Positions 3,884 to 61,995 of a stretch of 64,000 nucleotides of DNA are shown here, piece by piece. The position numbers were made by a program, and so were the translations under genes. How positions within the stretch are numbered: position 1 is the stretch's first letter; each line of letters starts with the position of its first letter. The notes under the pieces are model-generated. The model searched no databases. It was not told the DNA's origin and saw only the letters and a list, made by a program, of their open reading frames with translations. The stretch covers positions 13,954,348-14,018,347 of the forward strand of contig CAIIXF020000006.1 in assembly GCA_903813345.2 (NCBI GenBank), written 5' to 3'. Source of the DNA: Owenia fusiformis. Its lineage: Eukaryota; Annelida; Polychaeta; Sabellida; Oweniidae.

Positions 3884-4108
3884 TTGGGGTCCATGCCAAA
3901 CGACCCCACTTTTACTTTGTCACATGTCAGCTTAGACTCACATCGGGCACTCAGCACACTAGCATACATAAATATATTTGCAGGTAAACACAGTCTTACA
4001 ACAATAAATGCACATAACATTCAGAGGCATTTAGCTGACTGTGTAAGGAAATGTGGACCTATTTGGGCAAATCCCTATTTTGTGCCAGAATCACACAGGA
4101 AAAAATAA
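3884..4108 (+). pseudogene. Relic of a CMC/tnp2-like transposase C-terminal region
   Basis: The frame carries the pattern N-A-H-N-I-x3-L-A-D-C-V-x3-CGPIWA. It resembles the segment just before the catalytic glutamate of CMC-type transposases (a His-Leu pair, then D-x-V, then GPLW, then an aromatic/Phe-x-Glu block). The intact transposase at 57.5-59.3 kb has the equivalent GPLWNWSCFPYE. Here the Phe-x-Glu box has decayed to FVPES. The fragment runs out into the gypsy fragment starting near 4100. It is too short to say whether it derives from the same family as the large element. Confidence 0.3.
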
Positions 4109-5225
4109 TATCATCACCATCATAATGGAAAACATGTCAGAAATAACAACACCGCTGAGGGAACTGTTGCAGAAAGATGTTGCATTCCATTGGGATACAA
4201 AACACCAAAATTGTATGGACAAATTAAAACATCTTGTAACAACAGCTCCAGTACTAAAATTCTATGACATCACGAAACCAGTCACAATATCCGTAGATGC
4301 AAGCTCCACAGGAATAGGTGCTGCATTGCTACAAGAAGGTCAACTGGTTGAATATGCATCAAGGTCACTCACAATACATCAGATAAGATGGGCACAAATA
4401 GAAAAAGAAATGGCCGCTATCTTATTTGATTGTGAACGATTTCCCTCATATATACAGTATATGGACGCCACCACGTTTACAAAATATGATAATTTTTTTT
4501 TTCATCAAGAGATTTTATTGCCATTAATCATTATAAGTACATATCATACATGAGGGACTCAATCGCCAGTGGCATTATAGGTGTCCCTCAATGTAGTAAT
4601 TACAATTTGTAAACATGGTTTATACACAATTATATATTATAAGAAGAATAAAAAAGAAAGCATCTGCATTTTAAAATTGGAGTGTGGGGGGCTGCTGCCT
4701 CTGCCTATAGGGGGCTGCTGCCTCTGCCTATAGGGTCCTGGAAACAAAGATATAGTAGTATGAGTAGGGAAAAGAGGTTCGCGCCATAGTCTCCCATGAC
4801 TAAAGCATGTGACTGGTCTGTAAGATGATAATGAGGCTCCAACGTTATTCTATCAACGTAGAGTACAAGCCTGGTAACAGCCAAGAATTGATAGTATCTG
4901 ATACTCTATCCAGAGCGTATATTCCAGCGGAAAAACCCTTAATAAACGAGGATGATTTATCTATCAATCTAATCAACATTTTGCCAGTGTCAGCACAGAA
5001 ATATGAAATGCTGAAAGAGGAAACTCTGAAAGATGATCAACTGAAGGTGTTATCTAACACTGTAAGATCTGGATGGCCTGAGAAACAATCGCAAAGTTCC
5101 TCTAGTATAAGACAATACTGGAACATTAGAGATGAAGTGTCTGTATATGATGACATTTTATACAAGAACACAAATGTGTACAAAATGTCCCCACCAATGG
5201 GTGATCCCATCAAATGGTTATCCTG
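4100..5225 (+). pseudogene. Ty3/gypsy pol fragment (RT end plus RNase H), interrupted
   Basis: The first part (about 4126-4480) encodes the RT-RNase H junction with the pattern TPLRELL, F-x-W, VTISVDAS and GIGAALLQ, then the YASRSL block and an E-K-E-M helix, as in Ty3/gypsy RNase H. The second part (from 4825) resumes with RLQRY, YKPG and the D-T-L-S-R-A motif that closes RNase H, then runs into the spacer before integrase. Between them (about 4485-4824) lies foreign sequence, and roughly 15-20 residues of RNase H (the DHKPL region) are missing. It ends at a stop near 5223 where a satellite array begins. Confidence 0.75.
4485..4824. repeat. Short insertion in the gypsy RNase H region, with a 28-bp duplication
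   Basis: About 340 bp separating two halves of the RNase H frame. It starts with a run of T, which would be the poly-A tail of a minus-strand retroposon 3' end. Near 4685-4735 it contains two adjacent copies of a unit with GGGGGCTGCTGCCTCTGCC. I could not define target duplications. Confidence 0.4.
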
Positions 5226-19225: not shown

Positions 19226-20108
19226 GTACTGATTGGAAGCCAGTGGCTTACGGTAGCAAATCCCTTACGGAATGTTAAAAAAGATGGGCCCAGATAGAAA
19301 AAGAATGGGATTAGTTGAAGGGTGCAAAAAATTTCATGAATACATATATGGGATGGATAAAATTGAACTTGAAACAGATCATAAGCCTTTGATACGAATA
19401 TCCCAGAAAAAATTCAATGACATGACCCCAAGGTTACAAAGGTTGTTCATAAAACTGCAAAAATATGATTATACAATGATATACACCCCTGGAAAAAACT
19501 TGGTACTAGCAGACACCCTCAGTAGAGCAAGTTTCAGACCAAAAAGATCAGAACCAAGAGTTTCAAAACTAGATATCAAAATACCTGTCTCAGAGAACAT
19601 AATGAGAAAAATCCAAATAGAAACAAAGAAAGATCCCATATTATCCAAGATTATTGACTATGTAAGAAATGATTGGGAAAAGGGGTCAGAGAAAATATAC
19701 TCACAAATGAAACATGAAATTACTGGAGTGGATGATATTCTTTTGAGAGGGCAAACAGTAATTATCCCAAAAAGCATGAGGAAGGAAATATTGAATAGGG
19801 TCCATGAAGGTCACTTCGGAGTAGAAAAGTGTAAGCGAATAGCTAGAAAATCAGTATACTGGCCAGGCATTAATATTGATATCTCAGACATGATAGGTAA
19901 GTGCGAAACACGTCTTGAGCTGAAGTACAACAATGCAAAACAGCCATTGATAAATGGTGGCAAAACAAAAGGCCCCTGGGAAAAGGTTGAAATAGACCTT
20001 TTCAAACTCTTTGATAAGGACTATCTTTTAGTGACTGATTATTTCTCAAACTACCCAGAATGTGTTCATCTGTCAAGTACAAAGGCAAAAGACATTATAT
20101 GGACATAT
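19226..20108 (+). pseudogene. Gypsy RNase H and integrase N-terminal half, truncated
   Basis: After the LTR insertion the RNase H frame resumes (DWKPVAYGSKSL). After one break comes the open run 19272-20120: ELETDHKPLI, RLQRLFIKLQ, YTPGKNLVLADTLSRA. Then the integrase zinc domain VHEGHFG with YWPG follows; the C-x2-C pair is degraded to KCETRLE. The core starts with KVEIDLF (first catalytic Asp) and DYFSNYPE. The frame stops at 20118, before the second Asp, so integrase is incomplete. About 280 residues without a stop make this the best kept part of the element. Confidence 0.8.
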
Positions 20109-20646
20109 TATACTTTATGAGGCCAAGTGGAGTCTGTTATTCACTTAATTAGTATGTGTAGAGTTTTACCTGTCTGCCGCTTAGATTTTGTTATTCCAGA
20201 GTGACGGAAATGACGTAAGCAGAAGTAGGTAAATTCAACCAATGAGAAGCGAGGTAAGTATTTGCTCCGTTTGATTGGCGCCATCAAGTATTACACATGA
20301 AACTAAATTTGTTCTGCAAAGTAAGAAGATTTAGAAGGTACGCACATTGTTTTATAAGTAGTATTTGGAAGCAGTTGGTTTGTGATTATCAGTGATTTAT
20401 TAAGTTAGCTTACCGTTACATGTGACGGTCGCATAGTTCCATATTTCATGGAAAATAGGTAGAAGTAATGTATTATCGCCCAATGCATATTTTTTCCTTT
20501 TAACTTAGTTTTTTTTTTAAAATTATTAAGTTACGGTAATGTTAGTGTTCCGTCGAAAAGACAATAGTATAATAAAATAGGAAAACAATTAAAAGTCATT
20601 AAGGAATACGATTATCCAATCTACATTTTACAGAAAAGCTGGTAGG
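20109..20646. other. Noncoding junction before the YR-type retroelement
   Basis: No frame. It lies between the truncated integrase and the hydrolase frame and may be the leader or terminal repeat of the next element; I could not match it to another copy in the window. Confidence 0.3.
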
Positions 20647-24735: not shown

Positions 24736-25490
24736 ATATATGGTGAACACGGTGCAAGTAGTGTACCACCGAGTATTAAGTCAAATTCTGAAATAGTTAC
24801 GCCGGTAAAAATCGAGAATCAGGTACCAATGTTGGACGGTTACAATCCAGACATCGTACATTTCTTACATGAAGGTTTTTCTCACGGTTTCCATATCCCT
24901 TTTGTTGGAGATACGCCTAAAACACATGGCAAAAACTTAAAATCAGCTTTCACGCAGGTAGGCATTATGACAGAAAAAATTAAGAAAGAAAAAATTGTGG
25001 GTCGCTTAGCAGGTCCATTTAGAATAAAGCCAGAAGGTTTAGTGGTTTAGTGCCGATAGGCCTGGTACCAAAGAAGGTGAAGGGTGAGTTCCGGAGGATC
25101 CATCATTTGTCATCTCCTGAAGGTGGATTGGTGAATGATGGTATCCCAAAGGAATTGTTATCAGTTCACTATGACAAGGTTCAAGATGTGGTCGAAGTAA
25201 TTAAATCGTCAGGAAAACCTTTGTATATGGCGAAAGTCGATGTGAAAAGCGCATTCAATATAGTGCCAATTCATCCAGAATCTCAGAAGTTACTTGGCTT
25301 CAAATTCGAAAATGCATTTAATGTTGATCGTACTCTGCCTATGGGTTTGTCAATCAGTTGCAAGATGTTTGAAATAGTTAGCACGGCACTGAATTGGATT
25401 GCATTGAATAAGCTGAACATCACATATATGAAACATATTCTTGACGATTTTATAATTCTTGAAGATTCGGCGGAAAGATGCAGAGTTTAA
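24736..25490 (+). pseudogene. Reverse transcriptase N-terminal part, DIRS/Ngaro type
   Basis: The linker block reads LDGYNPDIV, FLHEGFSHGF, then KIKKEKIVGRLAGPF. After one frame change the palm reads PIGLVPKKVKGEFRRIHHLS, SPEGGLVNDGI, AKVDVKSAFNIVPIHP (first catalytic Asp), LLGFKF, LPMGLSISCK and LDDF in place of YLDDF. IHHLS, VDVKSAF and L-P-x-GLS-x-SCK are the pattern of YR-type rather than LTR-type RT. It breaks off at about 25490; RNase H and the tyrosine recombinase are not found downstream. Confidence 0.8.
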
Positions 25491-41229: not shown

Positions 41230-41790
41230 GCCTCTACTTACACAGCAGGCTTCACCCCAACAGTCACTGGCTAAAACCAAACAGTCACATCCCCTGCCCA
41301 AACAATCACAGGCTCAAACCAAACAGTCACAAATGACACTGCAGGCTCAACCCCATCAGTCACATGCTGAACCCAAACAGTAACATGTACAACCCAAACA
41401 GTCAATTGTACAACCACATCAGTCTTATGCTGAACCCCAACATTCACTGGCTCAAACCAAACAGTCACAAATGACACTGCAGGCTCAACCCCATCAGTCA
41501 CATGCTGAACCCAAACAGTAACATGTACAACCCCAACAGTCACATGTACAACCACATCAGTCTTATGCTGAACCCCAAAATTCACTGGCTCAACCCAAAC
41601 AGTCACAAATGACACTGCAGGCTCAACCCCATCAGTCATATGCTGAACCCCAACAGTCACATGTACAACCCAAATAGTCACATGCTGAACCACAACAGTC
41701 ATATGTACAACCCTAACAGTCACATATACAACCCCAACAGTTACATGCTGAACCCGAAACAGTCACAAATGACACTACAGGCTCAACCCC
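41230..41790. repeat. Tandem repeat of CACAxxCAACCC-type units
   Basis: Short units such as CCCAAACAGTCACATGTACA and CCCCATCAGTCACATGCTGA alternate and are organised in a longer block of roughly 130 bp marked by ATGACACTGCAGGCTCAACC near 41333, 41472, 41609 and 41769. The 150-codon minus-strand frame across it is a repeat artefact. Confidence 0.85.
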
Positions 41791-46628: not shown

Positions 46629-46639
46629 CCCCGGCGAAA
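46629..46639 (+). repeat. Left terminal inverted repeat of the large transposon
   Basis: CCCCGGCGAAA, an exact inverted match to 61075-61085. GC-rich within a strongly AT-rich neighbourhood, so a chance match is unlikely. Confidence 0.8.
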
Positions 46640-48790
46640 AAGCATGGAATAATTCCTGATTATTCGTGAATTATTCATCAATATTCATGTAAAATATTCA
46701 TGAATAATCCACCAATGAAGAATAATTATTCATGAACTATTCATGAATATGCGTGATCATCAATTTGGACACTTCCCCAAAATTCTTCAAAACTGAATTA
46801 CTGGAATATTCATGAATAAACTTTCAAGGACCCGTGAAGAATAAACAAGAACAAAAAAGAAAGAAATATCAAGGAATTTTTGAAGAATAAACATGAATTT
46901 ATATTCCTTTTTATTCTTCACATTCTGATTCAGCAAAAATCATGAATTCTTCAAGCATATGCTTGAACATCAATTTGGATATTCTTCATTATTCTTCAAA
47001 ATCCTTCTATGTTCATCATTTATTACTCATTTTTCATCATATGATAACTAGCACACCTGCCATGAATTATTCAAGAATAAAGATGAATAAAAATTTTAAT
47101 TGTCGTGGAATTTTATAAGAATAAAGAAGGAGAAATTTTTATGAATCTTTAAGAATACACAAGAATGAGCATTCATGATTTTTGACGAATAAACAAGAAT
47201 TAATATTCTTCTTTATTCTTCAAATTTCTAGTAAGCAAATTCATGAATTATTCAAGCATATGCTTGAACATCAATTTGGACATTCTTCATTATTCTTCAC
47301 AATCCTTCTATGTTCATCATTTATTCCCCAAATTTTCATCATATGATAACTTGCTCACCTGCCATGAATTATTAAAGAATAAAGATGAATAGAAATCCTG
47401 ATTATCAGGAATTTTTTAAGAATAAAGAAGGAGAAATCTTTATGAATCTTTAAGAATACACAAGAATAAACGTTCATGATTTTTGACGAATAAACAAGAA
47501 TTAATATTCTTCTTTATTCTTCAAATTTCTAGTAAGCAAATTCATGAATTATTCAAGCATATGCTTGAACATCAATTTGGACATTCTTCATTATTCTTCA
47601 CAATCCTTCTATATTCATCATTTATTCCCCAAATTTTCATCATATGATAACTTGCTCACCTGCCATGAATTATTGAAGAATAAAGATGAATAGAAATCCT
47701 GATTATCAGGAATTTTTTAAGAATAAAGAAGGAGAAATCTTTATGAATCTTTAAGAATACACAAGAATAAACATTCATGATTTTTACGAATAAACAAGAA
47801 TTAATATTCTTCTTTATTCTTCAAATTTCTAGTAAGCAAATTCATGAATTATTCAAGCATATGCTTGAACATCAATTTGGACATTCTTCATTATTCTTCA
47901 CAAACCTTCTATGTTCATCATTTATTCCCCAAATTTTCATCATATGATTACTTGCTCACCTGCCATGAATTATTAAAGAATAAAGATGAATAGATTATCA
48001 GAATTTTTTAAGAATAAAGAAGGAAAAATCGTCATGAATCTCTAAGAATAAACAAGAATAAACATTCTCGTTTTTGAAGAATATATATTAATAAATATTC
48101 TTCTTTATTCTTCAAATTTCTAGGAAGCAAATTCAAGAATTATTCAAGCATATGCTTGGACATCAATTTTGATATTCTTCAATATTCTTCACAATCCCTC
48201 TATGTTCATGATTTATTCCTCAATTTTCATCATATGATAACTTGACACTTTCCATGAATTATTCAAGAATAAAGATCCTTATTATCAGGGATTTCTTAAG
48301 AATAAATGAGAAATCTTCATGAATAAACATTCATGTTTTTGATGAATAAACAAGAATTAATATTCTTCTTTATTCTTCAAATTTCTAATCAAATTGATGA
48401 ATTATTCAAGCATATGCTTGAAAACTAATTCTTAAATATTCATCGGTAATTCTTCAATTTTCAAACTTCCAGTCACTATTGAGTTCCCAAGAATAAAGAT
48501 GAATAAACATTCAGGATTATTATTATCACTTTAGAATAATGAAGAATAAATTCTTCATGAATAAACAAGGATTCCTTTATGATTTTTAAGAATGAAAATA
48601 TTTTAAAGAATAAATGATAAAAACTTACCTCATTTCTTTTTACTGAGTTATTCATGTATATGCATCATGGGTAGTAATCAGAAAATGCTTCATTATGCAT
48701 CACCTCAATTTTTTATCTGATGTTTGCACTTTCCCTGAGTTTCTCAAGAATAAATATGAATAAAGAATAAACAATTCAATTGAAGTTACA
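46640..48790. repeat. Left subterminal array, about 301-bp units
   Basis: The palindrome AAGCATATGCTT marks each unit at 46953, 47254, 47555, 47855, 48146 and 48408, giving spacings of 301, 301, 300, 291 and 262 bp. The three middle units are almost identical; outer ones are diverged. Each unit is itself built of short ATTCATGAATAAA and AAGAATAAAGA motifs in both orientations. In CACTA-type elements subterminal repeats are the binding sites of the accessory transposition protein, and the same role is inferred here. Confidence 0.9.
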
Positions 48791-48917
48791 TAGAACTGCT
48801 TTATATTATTCTTAACAAATACTGTCAAACTACAAAATGAGTGTCCTTCTACAGGAAAGTTACAAAGTTACAAATACAAGTGTCTTGTCAAGTTGCAAAT
48901 ACAAGTGTCTTACGCAT

Positions 48918-51443
48918 CTACATTCTATTTTTTAAGCGTAATGCCTTTTGAATGTTAGCAATTTTTTCCTTCGTAATTTTTGGAGAAGTCTTACAATGTC
49001 TTTCCACTAAAGTTAGCACTCTGTTAACATTAGTCTGGTCTAGTGGGGGTCTAGAGCTCTCTGAACGACTTGATTTTTTCCCGGTGACACTATGGAGTAT
49101 CAACTCTTCTTCTGTGAAAAAATAGCTTACCAGCTTTTTTGTCACTGAACGGACATCACTTGCTGGTAGATGCTTAATAACATCATAAGCAATGTCATTT
49201 TCGTCCATATGCATTGCTTTTCTTATTTCAGCAACTTGGTTCTCGAGGTCCTTTACTCTCCTCTTTAGGCTTCTAATAGTTCTAGCAGACCTATATTGAA
49301 ATAAATTGGAGACATTCAAAATCACAGGTATTTTTTCATACTTTTTTCTGAAAGGTAAACATGGTCATACAGGGGTTTCAATAAATATGTTTTCAACAGG
49401 CTTTTTTGGCGATTTCAATAGGCTGGAACTTATTTCACCAAAATTGCTAAGGACAATGAATTTTTTTCTCAATATTTGAACAGGCATACTTGTGATTTTT
49501 TGCCGTCTGCCTGACTCATTATGAAAAGGCCAGAGGGATTAAAGAAGTAGTTTAAGTAAACCTCTTTCAGTAACTAGTAATTTATGCTTGAGTTAACAAC
49601 GTGAAATAAATAGGTAAAAATTATCTTACTTGTTCCCAGAGTTTGGGGGATTTTCTTCTTCCAAGTCTTTCAATGAATGCTCATCTTGGTTGGTTTTAAT
49701 TTTTTCCCTTGATGCCTTTGCAGATCTGTTATAAATAAATTGGTGGCATATTTAAAATCTGAGGCATATTTTAATTTTATACTTTATTTCTGAAAGGTGA
49801 AACATGGTCATGCAGGAGTTTCAATAAATATGTTTTTAATAGACCTTTTGGCAATTTTAATAGGATTTCACTAAAATTGGTAATTTCTCAAAATTTGAAC
49901 AGGCTTAATTGTGATTTGAAATGGTTTTTTGCCATCTGCCTTTGACTCATGGTCAAAATGGCAGAGGGAATTCTTTGAAGTATGGTAGTTAACTTAAAGG
50001 GGCAATAAGGCTTGTAGAGAGAAAATAGGAAAATTTCAACTTTTTCTGAGCTATCAAGGCAACATTTGGCTTAACATCTTCTTTGACATACCTATTTTCT
50101 TAAAATGTATGGATAAACTATCAATTTCAGCATTAAGAAGTGTAAATTCAGTTCAAAGCTAAATGGGACGTCCACTTTTATATTTTTAAGATCCACCATG
50201 TTTCAAGAGGAATATCAGCTGAAATAATGTTTATCTAGAGACTAGCGGGTTTCATTGTAGATAATAAAAATAGATGTTAGTCTTGATGAAGTATCCAAAC
50301 TTAAATATATTTTGACACTGGTCCATGATCGTTAAATAGCCCCTCTGCACTAATTGTTGCACCTAAATTATGCTTGACTTAACAACATGAAATAAATAGG
50401 TAAAAATTATCTTACGTGTTCTCAGAGGCTGAGGCATTTTCAGAGGCTGAGGCATTTTCTGGCGAACTAGCCATATCATCTGTGTCACTCGATGAATGCT
50501 CATCTGTCATGTCTGTCTCCCTGTCCCCGGCATCTTCAATGCAACCACCTCGGTTGCGTGCGATGTTACCCCAATATGCCTTGATTAGACATATAATCTC
50601 ATCTTGGGTTAAATTCTCATCAATGTACTTATCTGTCTTTTTGGCAGCTTGTACAAGCTCTGCATCGGACAATGATGCTAAAATAATAAGAGAAATTTCT
50701 CAGTCTAAAACTCAATCAGTCTCTAACTATAATGTTAGCCTGTAAGCGCAAGTCTTCAGTGATCAAAATAGAATAAAATCAACAACCCCAAAATTTTACG
50801 GGTGACAAAGTTTTTCATCCGTCAAAATAACCTACCTGTCAATATTTCGACAGATTAAAATTAGTTCCCTTCGAATGATGACCTGCAGGCCCTTAGCCAG
50901 GATTTGCCAAGGGGGGGTTCACTTTTCAGAAAAATTCCAGGGGGGTTCACGTTGACAAAGTTGACCCAAAATCACATGAAAATGCTCAGAATGGTGATGC
51001 ATGATTTTGAAAGAATGTTTGGCCAGGGGGGGGTCCGAACCGAATCGACCCCCCCCCCTGGCTACGGGCCTGACCAAAAGGTCAAAAGTCAATCACACGA
51101 GTCGCAACTGACAGAGAGAGAAAAGTTGTTGGGCCAAATGTGTTACAGGGCCTCAATTAATGTGCCTTTATGTCATTAAAAGGCCTTTAAGGGCCTCATT
51201 TTTAAAGAAACTGACCCTAAATTTTCAAAATTTTGAATTCTAACAGTCTTGCTTACCTCCGATCCCCAAGCAAATAGCGTCGTGTTCTTTAGCTTTCTTT
51301 CCAGCACCAAATCTACAAACGACAAATTCACCTAGTTCTGGGCATGTTCCTTTAGATCTATTGACAAGATTCCTGGCAGGCTCGATACTTTGTGTAAAAT
51401 CTTCCACCCAAAGTAGCAATAAATAGTCTGTTTTCTCCGCCAT
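48918..51443 (-). CDS. BEN-domain-like protein encoded by the transposon
   Basis: Four minus-strand exons, 51443-51257, 50677-50416, 49725-49630 and 49290-48918, join with GT-AG borders and matching phases into 305 codons without a stop. The ATG at 51443 has a strong context (AAGATGGCGG). Residues 1-62 form a compact N-terminal region (YLLLLWVEDF, C-R-F-G-A-G-K-K) like that preceding BEN domains in other invertebrate proteins. A linker rich in Ser/Asp/Glu follows (about 110-180). Then a coiled helix (RSLKRRVKDLENQVAEIRK, 188-206) leads to a BEN-like domain (about 225-300) with LVSYFFTEEEL, HSVTGKKSSR, PPLDQTNVNRVL and a terminal basic helix. BEN domains bind DNA and recruit chromatin factors. 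Transcribed away from the transposase gene; the intergenic gap is 3.8 kb. Inferred role: accessory DNA-binding or regulatory protein of the element. An unrelated host gene captured by chance is less likely given the intact context. Confidence 0.8.
49321..50420 (-). repeat. Tandem duplication of an exon with its flanking introns in the BEN gene
   Basis: The donor side of exon 2 (50345-50425) and of exon 3 (49575-49640) share AACAAC(A/G)TGAAATAAATAGG and the following GTAAAAATTATCTTAC. The introns downstream of exon 3 and upstream of it also share AACATGGTCATGCAGGAGTT-like sequence (49360 and 49805 regions) plus GACTCATGG/GACTCATTA. The pattern is that of a duplicated block of about 0.4-0.8 kb containing one short exon; the 96-nt exon 3 is a multiple of three, so the duplication preserved the reading frame. 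Confidence 0.6.
50885..51075. mobile_element. Small MITE in the first intron of the BEN gene
   Basis: Ends CAGGCCCTTAGCCAGG and CCTGGCTACGGGCCTG are inverted copies with one or two mismatches. Inside are poly-G (left and centre) and poly-C (right) runs that can pair. It lies in the intron between exons 51257 and 50677. No target duplication could be read with confidence. Confidence 0.55.
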
Positions 51444-51959
51444 CTTCTTCGAAAATTCGCGCGTCTGAAGATTGACGTAATGAAATATTAACCAATCAGC
51501 AGCAATGATGCTGTACCCAGGATGCATCGGGGAAGTGAAAGAAAATGGCAAAATTTACTCTGTGATTTTGTATCGGATTTGTTAAATATTATTATTGATG
51601 TGCATACAAACGTAAATGTTATCCTATTTTCGGTATAAATACGTACAAAACTACAGTATAATAAGAGTAAAACAGTCTGATTTATGGAATTTACATTAAA
51701 AGTAAAGGCGCGACGGTGTAATTTCGTTTAGTTGAGGTTTCAATTTAGACAGATTAACTACTTCCGGCAAATCCGTAAAAACAATTTTAGATCAATATTT
51801 TGATTAAAAATAACAAATCAGGTTAGTAAATTCAATCTATTTCCATGCATAGATGCCGGCAAGATTATTTTTTAGAAGGATAGCTCAATATTATATTATT
51901 CAGATGGGACGGTCCCCTCGAAAAAAATCAAATTTAAAATTTACGTCAACGATCACGAG

Positions 51960-52290
51960 TCGGGGGGGGGGGGGTGCCGCTGAGACTCAAAATATCTACC
52001 CACATCTTGGGATTTTGTTCTCTAAAAATGAACCCGGTTTTCTTTCAAAAATAGACCCACTTCAAGGTAATTTTTAAAACACAAGACCCACTTCCGGCGA
52101 TTTTTTTCAAAAACAATACCCAGTTTTAGGATTTTTCCAAAAATAGACCCATCTCTAGGGATTTTTTCCCAGATTTTTTTTATCAAAATGAAACCTCAAT
52201 CTAGGGTTTTTTCTTCAAAATGGGACCCACACCTAGGGATTTGGCGAAAGAGTGACCCATTTTAGTGGCACGTCCCCATATATTACTCGA
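51960..52290. repeat. Poly-G tract and degenerate 35-40-bp repeats
   Basis: A run of 13 G at about 51962-51974 is followed by about seven diverged units of the form ACCCA(C/T)(C/T)T(A/C)GGGATTTTTTC plus AAAAATG/AAATAGACC. A shorter relative occurs at 9955-10025. It ends at TGGCACGTCCCCATATATT. Confidence 0.7.
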
Positions 52291-53810
52291 GTCTCTAGCT
52301 TACAGCTAGATGTAACTTGATTGATTTCGTATGTTTTCCTGAAAAAATGTCATACACGCACCTTGAACTCATTTTTAATAGTTTCTATAAATATTTATAA
52401 GAATATTAATCATATTGATGTAGAAGCTTTGCTTGTCTGAATTTAGATATTTCAAAATTTCTTTTCGGAAAAACATTCAAACTCAATGGATCCGCCATTT
52501 ATACACCTCAGTGACCTCATTCGCAGAAAAATGGTGGCCATTTTAAAATGAAATTTCGTTTTGCGAAATTAAATGCTAAATACACTCGATTAAGACGGGG
52601 ATATGAGCTGATTTTCTGCAAATGTATGCATAAAGGTATGTTTCATATAATAATGACGAAACAACTGTGCGTGGTCACCATGCATTGGCAAATATTGAAT
52701 ACCACAGCTGCTGTAACAGTGGCTCAAAGCCAGATCATAGAGAAGGCTTTGGAACTAAGTAACCCATATAGATCTAGCCAATATATGGGGGTTGGTTTAT
52801 ATCCTTTCTTTGAGGTGCTTTAATGTCACCTAGGTGGTCTCTAGTGCTGGTTTTGTCTCTTGTACATTTAGTTTTGCGATTAGCTACTCTTGTGGTTTGT
52901 AGAGTCCTTTTTTGTTTTATATAAAATCCTGTACAGGTTGGCTAAGATCATATTCATAACTGCGATTGTTATTCACATTGTCGTGCAGCCATTTCAAAAA
53001 AATATGAGACATCTCATATCAAATCATATCTCATTCGAAGCGTCTTGTTATTCTTTAACTTTCTTATCACTAACGAATCGTATACAAACAATTAGACAAA
53101 ATAGTGATATATATTCAATATTGGTGGAAGGCTGTCCAAATCTGAATGTGCTTCTGTGATCCGAGAAATGTGAAGTCAGCATTACAATTATATTTGAATA
53201 CACAGGATCCCAGAACAAGATTCGGTGTCTCATCTTGAGGAATATTTATTGAGCTTCTGATCCCTACTACAAAAGAATTTTGCTGGCATCTATGTTTCCA
53301 TGTACGTTTTTACTGAAAATACATGTCGCATTTCTAAATTGACTTTTTCCTAGAAATTCAAAATTTTGAACCTTAGTCTACAGCACATACAGGGAACAGA
53401 TAGTACACTGACTGAAATTCTCTCTGTACCCAGTAGGTAAATTTTGTTCGGTGTACTAAAACTATCTGTTCCCAGGCCTATGGTCTACACAGCCCTAAAG
53501 GCTAGAGTTGGAGGAAATGTAAGTTGGTAGTCGACTTTTTGTGATTTTGATGTCATTTCTGCATTTCACAATCCACAATCGTGTGATTCATAATTGAAAA
53601 TTAACATGTGACTCTATTGAGCGTTGCAACAAAATTCACCCTGACCTTTACACCAGATTCAAATTTGTCCCACTCACTTTCGATTTATATTTCTCACATG
53701 ACAAAACAATAATCAAAATCAAAAAAGTAGGAGATATATCTAATTTGGTAAATTTTGTATCAGGATTTCCCATCACAAAAAATAATGACTGCAGACTTGC
53801 CAACCTAAAA
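52291..53810. other. Transposon interior between the divergent genes, no frame supported
   Basis: Holds short open frames (52548-52823, 52890-53159) without recognisable domains. It probably contains the divergent promoters and 5' untranslated sequence of the two genes. Confidence 0.35.
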
Positions 53811-53814
53811 TGAA

Positions 53815-54330
53815 AAATTTGCGTGAGATTTTCAAAAAATTGCGGTACTTTTACATGAGAGTTCTCCAAAATACGGTAGTTTTTGCGGGAGATTTTTGAA
53901 AAAACTAGAGTTTTTTACGCGCGATTTTTGAAAAACTGGAGTTTTTAAGGGAGAGTAGTTTTTAAGTAAATTTTATAAAAAGTGGTAGTTTTTGCGGGAG
54001 ATTTTTGAAAAAACGGAAGGTTTTGCGGAGGATTTTTTAAAATACAGGAGTTTTGCGGGAGATTTTTGAAAAACGGGTGTTTTTGTGGGAGATTTTAAAA
54101 ACGGCGATTTTTATGGGAGATTTTTGAAAAAAGGGAGTTTTTACGGGAGAGTTTTGATAAAACAGGAGTTTTCGTGGGAGAGTTTTGAAAAAACGGCAGT
54201 TTATGTGGGAGAGTTTTGAAAAAAACGGCAGTTTTTGCGGGATATGATTTTGAAAATAAACGGAAGTTTTTGTGGTAGACTTTTGACAAACGGTAGTTTT
54301 TGCGGGAGATTTTTGAAGAAACTGTAGTTG
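53815..54330. repeat. Minisatellite, about 30-bp unit, in the transposon interior
   Basis: About 15 copies of GTTTTTGCGGGAGATTTTTG followed by AAAAAACGGA. A few diverged copies recur at 54975-55090 (TTACGGGAGA-type). Both blocks lie upstream of the transposase start codon. Confidence 0.9.
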
Positions 54331-55269
54331 TTGCGGAAGAAAAAATGGGAGGAGCAGATTTTATTATTCTAGAAGCTGATTAAACATGCGTAAAATGCAT
54401 GGGGCGTGCTACCACTGATCATATCAGACTAAATCATGCAAAGTATGCAAACTATAGACTCTAAAAAGTAGTTCTTATCATTTCCATCCCGTTTTGAACG
54501 ATATCGCCGATTCATACATGAATCTGTGACATTAAGGATGCAGTACAGGGTTAGCGTAGCTTACGTTCCAGATATTAGATTATGCTCATATTTTTCGCAC
54601 TGTATCACAATGATGTTATCATTAGCCAAGTGCAATATAAAGAGGACTGACCAGCTGGTTACTACAAGATAAATTATTTACATTGACGGAATTTTTGAAA
54701 AAGATTTCTATGCATTTTTCATTTTCGGGTCACAGTTTCTTCATAAATATTGACTATGTCCAATAGAAACTTCATCTACCGACAGAAATATAAACCATCT
54801 ATATTACGGATCCATAAAAATGATAAATGGCATGCAAACAGTTAAAAATGTATAAACATATATAAAATGTGCAAACAGATAAGAAAATTGTTGAAAAAAT
54901 GAAACGGTCCCCGAGTTTGCAAAATGTAACGCCCAATGCGGAAATCGAACCGAAGACCTTTCGTTCCCAAGAGAGATTTTAGTAGAAATACGGTACGGGA
55001 GTGTTTACGGGAGAAAACGGTACAGGAGTTTTGTTATTTTTTACGGAAAAACAAAAAATTTACGGGAGATTCCCGTAAAAAAACGGGAGGTTGGCAAGTC
55101 TGGACTGCAAACTTACATTTCTGCTGAGAATAGATATATGAGACTGGCGCCAAATTTTGCTCCCCAACTTCTTACTTTCACTGTGCAGCTTGTGGATTGA
55201 TTATATACATATCATCATAAAAATTTGTCTTTTTTATTTTGCAGTTAATAGCTTGACTCACCATTTATT

Positions 55270-58200
55270 ATGAATGAATGTGAGAATACAAACCAAAACA
55301 GTCCAGGTTTCTTGGTTCTGCAGGAAAATGGAAAGAAACAATTTGAGTGCAGGGAATGTAGGCGGACTTTTACAAATAAAAGAAACATTGAAATGCATCT
55401 ACATTCAAGTCATGGCTATTGTAAGTTTCCATTTTTGAAGTTCAAAAAGTGGTTTTTGAAGGACTTTTTGTTGGAAAATTGTGAATTTGTTTAAAACTAA
55501 CTTTTAGAGGCCACACGTATCAATCGCCCATATACAAATGCATGTAGCATTCTCACATAAATAGTCATCATAGTAGTCATATACTATCAGATACATGAAG
55601 ATTGATCCACTAGAACTGATGAATATTCAAGTTCAAAAGAACCTTTTTCTATACTTGCTATGGTATCTGACCCGATGTAGCCACCTTGTGGTGAAATTGG
55701 TAACTACCTACTGGCATCTGGGTAATTAAAACTCGATGAATTTTATAATTTATTTTTGAATCCATTTCCCATTGTGGAGTTAACAAATATATTTTCTTAC
55801 AGCTTCACCAGTGAAGAAGTATAAATTGTACGAAAACAAACCAGGATTAAAAGAGAATGTACCAAGGAGTACCGTTTGGTATAGAGCAAATAGGAGTAAA
55901 TTGGAGAAAGAGCAGGAAGGTAAATAATTTAGATTTATGTAACCTCATCTTTTAAGCTCACATGGGTCACGGGCTTATCTACCTTGATCCAATCTTATGT
56001 TACTATTGTTTTAGTATAGGATTCCCTAATATATAAATATGCTTATTCGGCAAGTTTGAAAAGTGCAGCCCCTCTCTATAGGGAAAACCTCTGAACAAGG
56101 AAACTTTCCTCCAGTCTCAAGAGCATTCCCTGTTCGCAGGTTTTACTGTACATATAATTTAATTAAATTGTGCACTTTTCAGGTACAGATGATCAAGGGC
56201 CAGATGGAGAACGTCAAAATGATCAGAAAGATTCACAGGATGACATCACCCCTGAGTATTCAGACAAGGCCTATACAATTTCTGAAAAAAGTGAAACCAC
56301 TAGTATTGAACTTGAGAATTCTATTGCTATTTCATCACTCGTGGGTAATGGTACTGTAGTCCAATCTGTCACTCAATTATCAGATTACAATCATGGTGAC
56401 AAGATTGATGAAAGTTCATCTGCAACTGACTATGTTAATGGTAGCGAGCCATATGGCAAACTTGATATTGACTCAGACTCAACATCTATGAACTCGCATT
56501 CAGAATTGGACTCTGACGGTTATGAAAATATATTTTCTGACTCTGAATTTGATTCTTATAGTGATTCAAGCATATACAGTTGTTCATCTGATTCGGAGAC
56601 TGAACGCACATCCTGTTCAGAAATTGAAAATGACTCACTTGATCTTGACAAAGATATAATTGGCAGTGATGTGTATTTAAAGATACTGTCATGTTTTATT
56701 CGCAATGAACTTTCAGCTACAGCTTGCAAAGATGTGTTACAAACATTTCAGAAACTAACTCCAGAATCTCAGGTTTGGAATCAAATATCATATGACAAGA
56801 TATGGAGCATAGTGGATAATGTTACCAAGCAAATTCATTATTGCCCAGATTGTAGCAGGATATTTCCCGAGGATGACGTTGACTGTGTGGAATGTCCGTG
56901 TGGTGGTCTAAGATATATTGGTACAGCAGAGGAACAGAGAAAAGCTAATCGACAACCATGCAAAAAGTTTGTGTTTCTTGATCCAAAGAAATACATAAAG
57001 GACCTACTTGAGCTACCAGGTAAAGTATTATTGGAATGTTTCAGTTCAATTGAATAATTTGGCATTATTTTCTAAAATCCTACTTTTCAAGATGGCCACT
57101 GAATTTCAAAATGGCGGCCATTTTCCCTTAAAAAAACGTAATCTTTGATAACTTAAATACCAGTGAACGGATTTGGTTCAAATTTTATATGATGATGCCT
57201 AGGGACAAAGTAGATCTGTTCGAGTAAGAATTTTCAAGATGGCAGCTGAATTTCAAAATGGCGGCCATTTTTCGTAAAAAAAATAATCTTTGATAACTCA
57301 AATACCAGTGAACGGATTTGGTTCAAATTTTATATGCTCATACCTAGGGACACAGTAGCTCTGTTCAAGAAAGAATTTTCAAAATGGCCACTGAATTTCC
57401 AAATGGCTGCCATTTTTATAAAAGAAAGTAATCTTTGATAACTCAATTGCTAATTGACGCACAAGACTGTGGGTCCTTTATTACATTGTCCTAATTATCT
57501 TTTACAGGAACTTATTTTATTTATCTTTTACAGGAATGTGGGATGGCCTACAGAAAAACAAAGGAGTCATACTCGAACGCTATGAAACTAGTGATGGGGT
57601 ACTAAAAGATGTTACAGATGGTGAGGTCTACAGAAACCTAATAAAAACTGGATTTTTATCAAATCCTCACAATATTAGTGTCATGATGAATACAGATGGT
57701 GTTAACCTCTATAAATCAACAGGTGTTGAAATATGGCCGATTTTCCTATCAGTGACTGAACTCCCTCCTGCAGAGAGGTTTGCTCGTGAAAATATGATCC
57801 CAGCTAGTTTATGGCAAGGAAAGGGTAAGCCACCTTTCCAACAGTACATGGAAGTATTCTCATCGGAAATGAACAAACTATATACAGAGGGCATAGATAT
57901 TCATGTAAATCAAGAAATGATAAATGTGAAAGTAGTAGTCATTACATCACCAGCAGACCTACCAGCTAGGGCAAATATGATGAACATGACATATTATAAC
58001 GGCCAGTATGCTTGCACAACTTGTGAAATACCAGGCAAAACTGAAGTACAAGGTGGTGGACACACTAAAGCATTTCCAGCCCAGCACACCTACAAATACA
58101 GAACAGACAAGGAGATTCGCGATTGCATGACAAAAGGCCAAGAGAAAAAAAGAATCCTGGGTTTTAAAGGTAAATCTGGGCTCTATGATCTGAAAGGAGT

Positions 58201-59284
58201 GGACTTGAGCAAACTTTGCCCACCCGACTACATGCACTGTGTCTGTATGGGTGTAATCCCAAAAATTAATAAAAGGTGGTTTTCTTCTGAAAACAGCAAT
58301 GAAAGTTACCATGTTGGTAAAGAAATAAAAGAAATTTCAAGAAGAATGCAGTATATTAAGCCACCAAACATGATAGAAAGGTTACCACGAAACCTGGAGA
58401 AACATTATTTACACTTCAAGGCAACTGAAAATCAAACATGGATGCTTTTTTATGCAGTACCTTGCCTCGAAGGAATCCTCCCTAAGAAATACTTGGACCA
58501 TTTCAAAAAACTCTCTGAAGGCATACACATTTTGCTTGGTGACAGTATAACTACAGAACAAATTAACAGAGCAGAACTTCTCCTCAAAGAATTCTACGTT
58601 GAATACCCCAAGCTATATCCCCCTGGAGACTGTACATTGAACTTGCACTACATTGGAGCCCATTTCGGATATTGGGTCCAACAATTGGGACCATTGTGGA
58701 ATTGGAGCTGCTTTCCCTATGAAGATTCAAATGCACATATATTAAAAATGTGCCATGGAACAGGGGATGTAACAACACAGATAATGAGGCAAAAAACAGC
58801 TGAGATTAAAATAAGGACACAAAATCAACCAGTCAAAATCAAAGAGTTGAATACAACTGAGGAAAAACTTAAAATACATGGTAAAACAAGGCCATTATCT
58901 GATTCTGATCATGATCTGGACTCTGTGCCTCAGAACTGTACATCAGTGGCTTCACGAATCTCCATAAATGGAGAGATGTTCTACTCTGATGAGTATGCAC
59001 GCATGAAGAGGAGAATTTGTAACTGTGTGGAATTAAAAAATGGAAAACGTGGTTTCATTAAGAGGTTTGTTACTGATGGCAAAGAAACACATTTTGCAGT
59101 AATTGATATGCTCAGAGTGCAGAGAGGTTCAACTTATGCAAATAAAGCAAAACCTTCAGGGAAAACAGAGCTGTATCACATAAGTGAGCTAAAGAGAAAA
59201 CTTGTTTTAGTTCAGTGTGGAGAAAATATGCAAATGTATGTTCTAGCAATGCCTAATGGCATTGGACGCTCCGTTTTCAAATAA
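55270..59284 (+). CDS. CMC/tnp2-like transposase with zinc-finger N-terminus
   Basis: Four exons, 55270-55420, 55803-55919, 56183-57019 and 57534-59284, splice with GT-AG borders and matching phases into 951 codons. Residues 27-48 form a C2H2 finger (C27, C30, H43, H48). Residues 90-240 are acidic and Ser/Asp-rich. Around 310-335 is a Cys cluster (CPDC, then CVECPCGG) like a zinc ribbon. The catalytic core in the last exon has MNTDGVNLYKS (candidate Asp 423), the downstream SLWQGKGKPPF block, PPDYMHCVCMGV (candidate Asp 600) and LGPLWNWSCFPYEDSN (candidate Glu 765) followed by HGTGDV. This order matches tnp2/CMC-type DDE transposases. No stop or frameshift is present, unlike nearly all other mobile genes here. 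The C2H2 exon probably adds end-recognition. Plavaka-like relatives cannot be excluded. Confidence 0.85.
57060..57450 (+). repeat. 2.5-copy tandem repeat, about 146-bp unit, in transposase intron 3
   Basis: CAAGATGGC/CAAAATGGC followed by CACTGAATTTCAAAATGGCG begins near 57087, 57235 and 57380. Each unit also has AATACCAGTGAACGGATTTG. An ATCTTTTACAGGAA is duplicated at 57498 and 57524, giving two possible acceptors; only the second (57534) continues the reading frame used here. Confidence 0.75.
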
Positions 59285-59700
59285 AGCATCTGTTCGGGCG
59301 ATAACTGAAATATTTTCCATTGTGTTCCTTACACCATATTGAACATAATATTCACATGAAATTGACTTTTATAAAGTTCTTATGCATTGACAATAATCAT
59401 AATTCTTGAATATTAGAATATTTGTAGAATATTTTCCAGGACTTAGATATTTCACTTTATTCTGAAAAAGCTCTGCAAGTGTTGCCAGGATGAATATATA
59501 TTGAATATTAAATACACAGTAAAATAATTTGTATCTTTAATACAAAATAATGTTTTATTTTGAATAAATTCTGTAAGTGTTCTTAAACCTAGTACATAGC
59601 GTTCTTGAACCTAGGTAAATAACAATTTTATGTAATAAAACATACTATAACATACTAGTATGTTGCTGTTGGATTCAAATACAATTTCTTACAATATACT
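59285..59700 (+). other. 3' untranslated region of the transposase gene, inferred
   Basis: AT-rich sequence after the stop at 59284. Plausible polyadenylation signals include GAATAAATT at about 59562. The right subterminal array starts soon after. Confidence 0.4.
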
Positions 59701-61074
59701 TAAATACTTTTTGAACTATAATTCAGAATTCCTGTTATTCTGAAGATAATTCTTGAATTTATATATATATATATAATAATAATATGTATAAAAGTCAAAA
59801 TTCTTAGTGTACATACTAAATATAATAAAATAATTTGAAATAAAAGCAGAGAAATTCTTCCTACATGTTTCTTTATTTAAACATCTTTCTTGAAGATTTT
59901 TAAATAAAGAAACATGTAGGAAACATGTGGTGAAAAAGTGAAGAATATCTGAGAACATATTTTTTAGTTCTTCATTATTATTCAAATATCCTTCAAAGAA
60001 GTAGGTGAAAATAAGAAGAATTTCCAAGATTACCAATAATTCAAAATGTTCTTTGTTATTCTTAAGATATTCTTCAAATAAGCTGGTGAAAAATTGAAGA
60101 ATATCTAAGAACACATAAGTTCGTCATTATTATTCAAATATCCTTTAAATAACATGGTGAAAATATGAAGGATTTCCAAGATTACCAGTAGTACAAAATG
60201 TTCTTTATTATTCAACAAATATTCTTCAAATAAGGTGGTGAAAAATTAAAGAATATCTAAGAACATAGAAGTTCTTCACTATTATTCAAATATCCTTTAA
60301 ACAAGGTGGTGAAAATATGAAGAATTTTCAGGATATCGAACAATACAAAATGTTCTTTATTATTCTTCAGATATTCTTCAAATGAGGTGGTGAAAATGTG
60401 AAGAATATCTGAGAACATTGTAGTTCCTCATTATTATTCAAATATCCTTCAAACAAGTTAATGAAAATATAAAGAATCTCCAAGAATACCATAACTACAA
60501 AATGTTCTTCATAATTCTTCAAATATTCTTCAAATGAGGTAATGAAAAATTGAAGAATATCTAAGAACATAGAAGTTCTTCACTATTATTCAAATATCCT
60601 TTAAACAAGGTGGTGAAAATATGAAGAATTTTCAGGATATCCAACAATACAAAATATTCTTTATTATTCTTCGAATATCCTTCAAATGAAGTGGTGAAAA
60701 AATGAAGAATATCTGAGAATATTTTAGTTATTCATTATTATTCTCTCATTCCTTAAACAACATGGTGAAAATATGAAGAATTTCCAAGATTTCAAGAAAT
60801 AGAAAATGTTATTCATTATTATTCAAATATTCTTCATTCAGGGTGGTGAAAATATGAAGTATTTTGAAGAACATGAAACATTCTTTATTTTTCTTCAATT
60901 ATTCACCATAGAATTTGAAGAATATTCAAGAACATAAATTATTCTTTATTATTCTTCAAAAATACAAGAATATGGTTAAATCTTTATTCTTCACAATTTA
61001 TCTCGATATTACAATATTCATCACACCTGAATATTCATGAATAATTCATGAATATTCATATCACAAGAATATCA
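59700..61074. repeat. Right subterminal array, about 151-bp units
   Basis: ATGTTCTTTATTATTCTTCA-like phrases recur near 60048, 60199, 60351, 60503 and 60653, so the unit is about 151 bp. Each unit also holds TCAAATATCCTT(C/T)AAA and GGTGGTGAAAATATGAAGAA. The last 150 bp before the right end switch to the ATTCATGAATAATTCATG motif shared with the left end. The two ends thus have different long repeats but a common short motif. Confidence 0.9.
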
Positions 61075-61085
61075 TTTCGCCGGGG
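61075..61085 (-). repeat. Right terminal inverted repeat of the large transposon
   Basis: TTTCGCCGGGG, exact inverted match to 46629-46639. Confidence 0.8.
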
Positions 61086-61431: not shown

Positions 61432-61995
61432 ATGGCGACGAGGATCAACAACATCACGTTCCCACCATTTGACATCCACCAAACCAACGCATCCACCGCG
61501 TGGAAGAAATGGATTAGGCGATTCGAGACTAGACTAGAAATGTCTCGAATCGCCTAACCCATTTCTAGTCGCTGAAAATATAACCAATGCAAGAAGGCAG
61601 AGGGCAATGCAATTGCATTTCGGAGGCCCCTAACTCCACGATTTATCTGAAACTTTGGGAAATACTGGATCGGACGATAATTTTGAATCTGCGAAACAGA
61701 GCCTCTTGGAGTATTTTGAACCAAGGAAGAATATTGATTTCGAAATCATTAAATTCAGACTGCTCAAACAAGAAGAATCTGAAACCATTATGCAGTTTTA
61801 CTCACACCTGAGATCACAAAGCGTAAACTGTGACTTCAACGACCAGGAAGATATCGAGGTGAAAAGGCAAATCATTGTCGGCACTGATGACACCTTGCAA
61901 AAAAGGCACTGAACCAATCAAACAATTGGGACCTCAAGAAATTACTGGACTATGCCAGGTACCACATTACAGTCAGCATTGATTTTGACAACCAT
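61432..61995 (+). pseudogene. Ty3/gypsy gag fragment
   Basis: Starts MATRINNITFPPFDIHQTN with AWKKWIRRFETRL, the usual opening of gypsy gag. A 19-bp inverted templated insertion (see findings) breaks the frame at about 61553. In the next frame come RRQRAMQLHFGG, then FESAKQSLLEYFEPRKNIDF, FRLLKQEESETIMQFYSHLR and VKRQIIVGT, the central gag (capsid-like) domain. The zinc knuckle is missing. It ends near 61990 where unrelated LRR-like sequence begins. Confidence 0.75.

Follow-up and report, generated by a model that had tools for sequence, protein, structure and literature searches.

A Transposase_21 gene and a divergent BEN-domain gene share a multicopy TRC-branch transposon in the annelid Owenia fusiformis

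In the plant CACTA element En/Spm, the tnpD product is the putative transposase and TNPA recognises the subterminal repeats, and transposition requires both proteins; TNPA and TNP1 are little alike and have been suggested to be non-homologous (PMC2613891; PMC1636069). The animal TRC branch of CACTA/EnSpm (CMC) includes SmTRC1 of Schistosoma, a 4.5-kb element with a Transposase_21 domain, 54-bp ends beginning CCC, an internal tandem-repeat region and 2-bp target-site duplications in 7 of 14 copies, for which the covered part of the description gives an open reading frame of 560 amino acids (aa) and mentions no BEN gene (PMC1636069). A second member, Spongebob_HMa of Hydra, has CCC ends, 2-bp duplications, a length of 5.8 kb and a broken transposase frame, with no second gene mentioned in the covered part of its description (PMC4298943). 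Here we analysed 64,000 nucleotides of Owenia fusiformis DNA (the window: assembly GCA_903813345.2, contig CAIIXF020000006.1, forward-strand positions 13,954,348 to 14,018,347), which contain a complete transposon carrying two divergent genes, one for a Transposase_21 protein and one for a BEN-domain protein. The element is present in nine nearly identical copies in the genome, and the same two-gene design recurs in a second, diverged family.

The element resembles SmTRC1 in its Transposase_21 domain, its CCC-beginning ends, its tandem repeats and the presence of 2-bp duplications in part of the copies, and resembles Spongebob_HMa in its ends and duplications; unlike either, it spans 14.5 kb, and unlike SmTRC1 it has ends of only 11 bp and a separate, divergent BEN gene. 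With the plant elements En/Spm, Tam1 and Tgmt* it shares a transposase, a DNA-binding partner (presumed here to bind) and subterminal repeats on both sides, whereas their CACTA ends, and the 3-bp duplication of Tgmt*, contrast with CCCC ends and 2 bp in Owenia (PMC2613891). In Spm and Tgmt*, moreover, the TNPA/TNP1-type partner is spliced from the same gene, whereas the BEN partner has a divergent gene of its own. Two more distant systems offer partial parallels. In bacterial Tn3-family transposons a BEN-like fold, the DBD1 domain of TnpA, is the main specificity domain of the transposase and binds box B2 of the inverted repeat (PMC9579193), but that domain lies within the transposase and was found by structure, whereas here the BEN domain is recognised by sequence in a separate protein. 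Certain fungal TET/JBP-carrying transposons, including EnSpm elements, also bear an extra gene beside the transposase, but that gene encodes a methylcytosine dioxygenase (PMC12730594). Our literature search, in sources covered in part and not extending to Repbase or the main BEN surveys, returned no eukaryotic transposon encoding a BEN protein, which does not establish absence from print.

The transposase gene lies on the plus strand, and its four predicted exons join in phase into an open 951-aa protein that matches Transposase_21 (PF02992; E 2.8e-15, 56.6 bits against a curated Pfam cut-off of 28.6). The BEN gene lies on the minus strand and is divergent from it; its four predicted exons join into an open 305-aa protein with a C-terminal BEN domain (PF10523; E 2.6e-10, 40.8 bits against a cut-off of 23.2). 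All six introns of the two genes are GT-AG with fitting phases under predicted splicing, in agreement with the original prediction of two divergent four-exon genes with matching phases and complete frames. The exact 11-bp inverted ends which it had described, CCCCGGCGAAA and its exact reverse complement, proved to be the only two exact occurrences of that sequence on both strands of the window, and the subterminal arrays it had placed on both sides are tandem arrays of 301 bp x 4.7 (left) and 152 bp x 6.2 (right) (Table 1).

BEN domains are sequence-specific DNA binders of short motifs; NACC1 has a preference for DNA containing CATG, and BANP forms oligomers by way of a coiled coil (PMC11472053). 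Animal BEN/DUF4806 proteins (DUF4806 is called a BEN subtype in PMC11075544) share the domain with the protein described here but have been presented as chromatin and transcription factors, whereas this one is borne by a transposon. It is weakly similar in sequence to the solved BEN structures 4ix7, 7yul and 4x0g (E 0.0066, 0.016 and 0.12, respectively). Alignment-free structure prediction gave no usable model for either exon submitted, with a mean predicted local distance difference test score (pLDDT) of 30.9 for the transposase exon and 58 for the BEN exon, whose best fold match in the PDB, BEND6, has an E-value of 1.7 and is not evidence. A helix at the start of the BEN exon was nevertheless predicted confidently (pLDDT about 90 for residues 1-20) and is compatible with a coiled coil. 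Among viral contigs, patterns of the transposase exon had zero matches, and 28 pattern matches to the BEN exon all failed confirmation.

Searching the window's own genome (498 Mb, 525 contigs), we found transposase exon 4 (1,751 bp) at nine places at 100% identity. A protein search with BEN exon 4 gave 23 matches, only nine of them at 100%, each near an identical transposase exon and on the opposite strand. These nine copies are spread over C1, C6, C7 and C9; their flanks differ, and identity runs exactly between the 11-bp ends. Both exact ends are present in eight copies, the ninth (C7:33.1 Mb) being without the last 4 bp on the transposase side. Six of the eight fully ended copies measure 14,455-14,460 bp, and the remaining two reach 16,019 and 18,594 bp owing to extra insertions. 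All eight exons are letter-identical throughout. Only four substitutions were counted among the nine copies, each confined to a single copy and none exonic, so that pairs differ by 0-2 over 13.8-14.5 kb (the count leaves aside short indels and the final 0.67 kb of the C7 copy; compared pairwise with the window copy over its whole length, that copy likewise shows 2 mismatches). This star-like pattern of substitutions indicates a very recent burst.

Matching 2-bp duplications (CT, CG, TC, AA and TG) flank five of the nine copies, a result expected by chance about 1e-4 of the time for five or more matches at 1 in 16 each. The copy at C9:20.3 Mb sits inside a 39-bp tandem repeat, and taking out the element plus one CT restores the 39-bp period. 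At C9:16.1 Mb the joined flank belongs to a genomic repeat: of 1,728 candidates 40 were scored, two of which are insertion halves and 38 cross the junction, as judged from match ranges without displaying the alignments. Two of the insertion sites thus have uninterrupted counterparts, which speak for precise insertion. The original prediction, which suggested recent or current activity, had looked to further copies with the same ends, to a BEN gene accompanying the transposase and to empty sites in other haplotypes. The first two were found, with the BEN gene present at all nine places that have the identical transposase exon, and the two uninterrupted counterparts lie within this genome; with the near-identical copies and the 2-bp duplications, they bear out the activity it proposed. 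A single host locus bearing two ordinary genes, if duplicated segmentally or multiplied by misassembly, would also yield nearly identical copies. Such an origin is extremely improbable, given that identity is bounded exactly by the 11-bp ends, that the copies lie on four contigs among differing flanks, and that 2-bp duplications and uninterrupted sites exist.

Elsewhere in the genome, too, both ends of the element are found terminating independent insertions, with no matches to reversed-pattern controls. A degenerate 27-bp pattern of the BEN-side end, allowing up to 2 mismatches, occurs at 16 places, comprising ten family-1 ends (the nine copies, here called family 1, and a fragment) and six that resemble the second family (two of them with 1-2 mismatches). 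The fragment, locus L054 (C7:32808500-32812500; end at C7:32808690), is a one-ended copy in which 1,413 bp that match the BEN-side end with 100% identity give way to unrelated sequence, possibly an aborted or broken insertion. The transposase-side end pattern was likewise found at 16 places, namely the nine copies (the clipped C7 end at 3 mismatches) and seven others, near which no family-1 BEN-side end stands among the pattern matches. Four of these seven were fetched (L055-L058, on C2, C11, C6 and C2). Three of them are 95-99.7% alike across 2.3-2.4 kb; the remaining one is 97% like these across 1.2 kb. They have the family-1 transposase-side end and arrays 75-84% like those of the window element; no transposase match is listed within 100 kb of them and their other ends were not found. 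They probably form a related non-autonomous group.

A search of the genome with the transposase exon gave 38 matches, 29 of them outside family 1. At two of these places, C4:5892269-5893969 and C12:9372611-9374311, a 43% identical transposase with an open 588-aa frame sits head-to-head with a BEN relative 35% identical to that of family 1, in the same divergent layout. The C12 element of this second family, read whole, is 9,617 bp long, has ends CCTTGGTGAAA and CCTTGTCGAAA and is flanked by TA on both sides; the BEN stretch lies on the left on the minus strand and the transposase on the right on the plus strand. The finger exon (41% over 32 aa, E 0.003), the acidic and Cys-rich exon (41%) and the catalytic exon all have counterparts in it, and transposase exon 2 has no significant match there. 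The C4 element is about 10,052 bp long by its ends, with AT on both sides, and thus both family-2 copies with two known ends show 2-bp duplications. The family-2 transposase matches Transposase_21 (E 1.2e-9, 38.1 bits; Pfam), the homology of its BEN stretch follows from a tblastn match to the 305-aa protein (E 6e-11 to 7e-11), and the BEN-side terminus is homologous across the families (CCCCGGCGAAAAAGCATGGAATAATTC versus CCTTGGTGAAAAAGAATGGAATTGTTC). Since the two genes are linked in nine copies and the design is repeated in a second family, the BEN gene is inherited with the element and is not a one-off passenger.

Of the 14 diverged BEN loci in the genome, 5 have a transposase match within 20 kb; random placement of the loci on their own contigs gave a mean of 0.05, and none of 20,000 trials reached five (the size of C3 was guessed, and uniform placement ignores the clustering of repeats). 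The three further diverged loci that were tested (L018, L021 and L022) pass the Pfam BEN cut-off. Stretches like the left subterminal region adjoin the BEN genes of L018, L020, L021 and L024, and a sequence resembling the terminal inverted repeat, CCCCAGCGAAA, begins about 2 kb from the BEN gene of L022; the 9.9 kb of sequence fetched next to L022 or to L021 contained no transposase. Many of the diverged BEN loci are thus decayed or partial.

In an alignment of the catalytic exons, numbered on the full family-1 protein, residues D423, D510, C529/C532, the DYMH block and E667 are the same in both families. This is the D, D, E pattern of CMC transposases with C(2)C between the second D and E, and these residues are the presumed catalytic ones; by eye, no shared histidine pair with H(3-4)H spacing stands between the second D and E, in an alignment of two sequences only. 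For the published motif I and eumetazoan motif A, the latter D-x-L/M-H-x3-L-G (PMC1636069), the candidate stretches by eye are ISVMMNTDGVNLYKSTGVEIWPI and PDYMHCVCMG, each with one or two departures (M where the motif has an aliphatic residue; P preceding D, and M in place of L). As to the features of plant-type CACTA elements, subterminal repeats occur on both sides, whereas the ends are CCCCGGCGAAA rather than CACTA and the duplication in matching copies is 2 bp rather than 3 bp. Among TRC features, an inverted repeat beginning CCC is found in family 1 only, family 2 beginning CCTT, and the 2-bp duplication is found in five of nine family-1 copies, not including that of the window, and in both family-2 copies. 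We assign the element to the animal TRC branch because of its CCC ends, 2-bp duplications and Transposase_21; by these features it is a TRC-branch member with a new partner gene. The earlier description of an intact, CMC-like 14.5-kb transposon thus holds as to completeness, and its label is sharpened.

The left subterminal region contains the motif TGAAGAAT 26 times and the right one 18 times; the 10.5-kb interior lacks it, and the 49.5 kb of window outside the element hold 8 occurrences. In 200 dinucleotide shuffles, no shared 8-mer exceeded a count of 6 on the poorer side. The enrichment of a second motif, TTCATGAA, is chiefly on the left (9 occurrences, against 2 on the right and none in the interior), and CATG is enriched in the left array only. 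The known BEN targets CGCG and CCAATTGG showed no enrichment in the arrays, and no binding site was assigned. In family 2, TGAAGAAT is absent and TTCTAGAA, chosen after looking, occurs 3 times on the left, 9 times on the right and 0 times in the interior, against at most 1 per side in its own shuffles, which suggests that the subterminal motif changed along with the diverged BEN protein.

We consider it probable that the element is an autonomous TRC-branch transposon that has moved recently, or still moves, by cut and paste; in it the BEN protein most likely binds the subterminal repeats, pairs the ends and brings in the transposase. The Transposase_21 protein would cut and join at the CCCC... 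ends, giving rise to 2-bp target-site duplications. By analogy with TNPA in plants, the BEN protein, made from the divergent partner gene, would most likely coat the repeated motifs of both arrays as an oligomer, pair the two ends and recruit or license the transposase, and perhaps also regulate the element's own promoters; we infer that it is required for transposition. Alternatively, it may act mainly as a regulator or anti-silencing factor of the element (a repressor, insulator or chromatin opener) outside the transposition complex, a role in keeping with the description of animal BEN proteins as chromatin and transcription factors and with TNPA, which restores activity to the Spm promoter when it is methylated and represses it when it is not (PMC1636069). 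However, the repeated motif stands at both ends and is absent from the interior that holds the start regions of the divergent genes, and we regard this alternative as unlikely.

Several observations weigh against this main reading. The window copy is preceded by TT and followed by CT, and three further copies have unmatched flanks (C6:16.87 Mb, AT/TA; C1:24.2 Mb, TG/TA; the clipped C7 copy, AG/TG). Nothing in the C12 element matches the first 187 residues of the 305-aa BEN protein, and the family-2 BEN stretch falls under the Pfam cut-offs (DUF4806, E 0.0013; BEN, E 0.036). An unbiased 8-mer scan of family 2 found no subterminal motif exceeding the shuffles. Only 2 of the 14 diverged BEN loci, those of the C4 and C12 elements, show the head-to-head layout, and 24 of the 29 transposase matches outside family 1 have none of the 14 within 20 kb (one of these 24, C9:413060, has a family-1 BEN exon about 12 kb away). 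A BEN partner is therefore not needed by every CMC element and marks a subgroup. The same figure would fit a BEN gene captured from the host as a passenger, with the transposase alone mobilising the element, as would the 560-aa open reading frame of SmTRC1, with no BEN protein mentioned in the covered part of that source (PMC1636069). Yet the pair keeps its orientation across two families whose transposases and BEN proteins are as diverged as stated above, and the frames of the catalytic and BEN exons are open in both, where a useless passenger would be expected to decay; we hold the passenger explanation to be quite unlikely.

Further features of the element and its surroundings were noted. 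The BEN gene was considered as a separate nested transposon, and this was rejected: among the 25 of 31 inverted-repeat pairs listed, none bounds the BEN gene alone, and a separate element is also hard to reconcile with the linkage seen in nine copies and again in family 2. Within the gene, 49578-49655 and 50364-50441 are 88% alike over 78 bp, each spanning an exon 3' end and the following donor, which suggests that BEN exon 3 arose via duplication inside the gene. The insertion between the two genes, which contains tandem units of about 30 bp, predates the burst, as it is located in the interior that aligns in all nine copies. The short repeat in BEN intron 1 we take to be hAT-like from its end motif; by eye, the flank of the genomic repeat into which the C9:16.1 Mb copy inserted resembles it. 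A 145-bp x 2.5 tandem repeat rich in AATGGCGGCCATTTT lies in transposase intron 3 (57084-57446). Elsewhere in the window, open stretches at 4047-4553, 19257-20120, 25023-25490 and 61634-61912, the last just outside the transposon, resemble by eye fragments of retrotransposon reverse transcriptase, RNase H/integrase and gag, and tandem 138-bp and 21-bp repeats at 41271-41767 are accompanied by an open repetitive stretch on the minus strand.

Table 1 Features of the transposon, in window coordinates.
Feature	Position	Strand	Remarks
Whole transposon, 14,457 bp	46629..61085	.	Exact 11-bp inverted ends; other copies with the same boundaries
BEN-side terminal inverted repeat CCCCGGCGAAA	46629..46639	+	Ten such ends, including the next 16 bp, genome-wide
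Left subterminal region	46640..48760	.	301-bp x 4.7 tandem array at 46876-48276; 26 TGAAGAAT motifs
BEN exon 4	48918..49290	-	Predicted helix (possible coiled coil), then BEN domain, aa 232-298; identical in 9/9 copies
BEN exon 3	49630..49725	-	Identical in 9/9 copies
BEN exon 2	50416..50677	-	Identical in 9/9 copies
Short nested repeat, CAGGCCC...GGGCCTG, in BEN intron 1	50886..51072	.	Within the interior aligning in all nine copies
BEN exon 1	51257..51443	-	Identical in 9/9 copies
Older nested insertion between the two genes	53792..55102 (53787-55107 with duplication)	.	Exact 15-bp inverted ends CAGACTTGCCAACCT; 5-bp GACTG on both sides
Transposase exon 1	55270..55420	+	C2H2-like finger, aa 25-48, below Pfam cut-off; identical in 9/9 copies
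Transposase exon 2	55803..55919	+	Identical in 9/9 copies
Transposase exon 3	56183..57019	+	Acidic stretch and Cys-rich stretch; identical in 9/9 copies
Transposase exon 4, Transposase_21	57534..59284	+	D423, D510, C529xxC532, E667; identical in 9/9 copies
Right subterminal region	59300..61074	.	152-bp x 6.2 tandem array at 59927-60874; 18 TGAAGAAT motifs
Transposase-side terminal inverted repeat, exact reverse complement of CCCCGGCGAAA	61075..61085	-	End pattern recurs in the genome

The two-protein CACTA systems in the literature covered are those of plants, whereas here an animal element pairs its transposase with a different DNA-binding fold. Since structures of DNA recognition have been solved for that fold, the accessory role is testable, and with nine nearly identical copies present in a single genome, activity can be tested directly. 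We would tentatively extend the proposal: BEN/DUF4806 proteins may, though this is far from assured, be the standard DNA-binding partners of one entire branch of animal CMC transposons, co-diverging with subterminal repeats as is thought for plant TNPA-like proteins, and many lineage-specific, multi-copy animal BEN/DUF4806 genes, perhaps including some host BEN factors, may derive from such elements. Hydra viridissima and H. vulgaris have 69 and 54 DUF4806 genes, respectively, whereas five other cnidarians have 0-6, and transposase-type domains dominate the table that gives these counts (PMC7642931); a link between this expansion and such transposons is a lead rather than a result. If the pairing is general, it would provide a source for lineage-specific expansions of BEN and DUF4806 genes.

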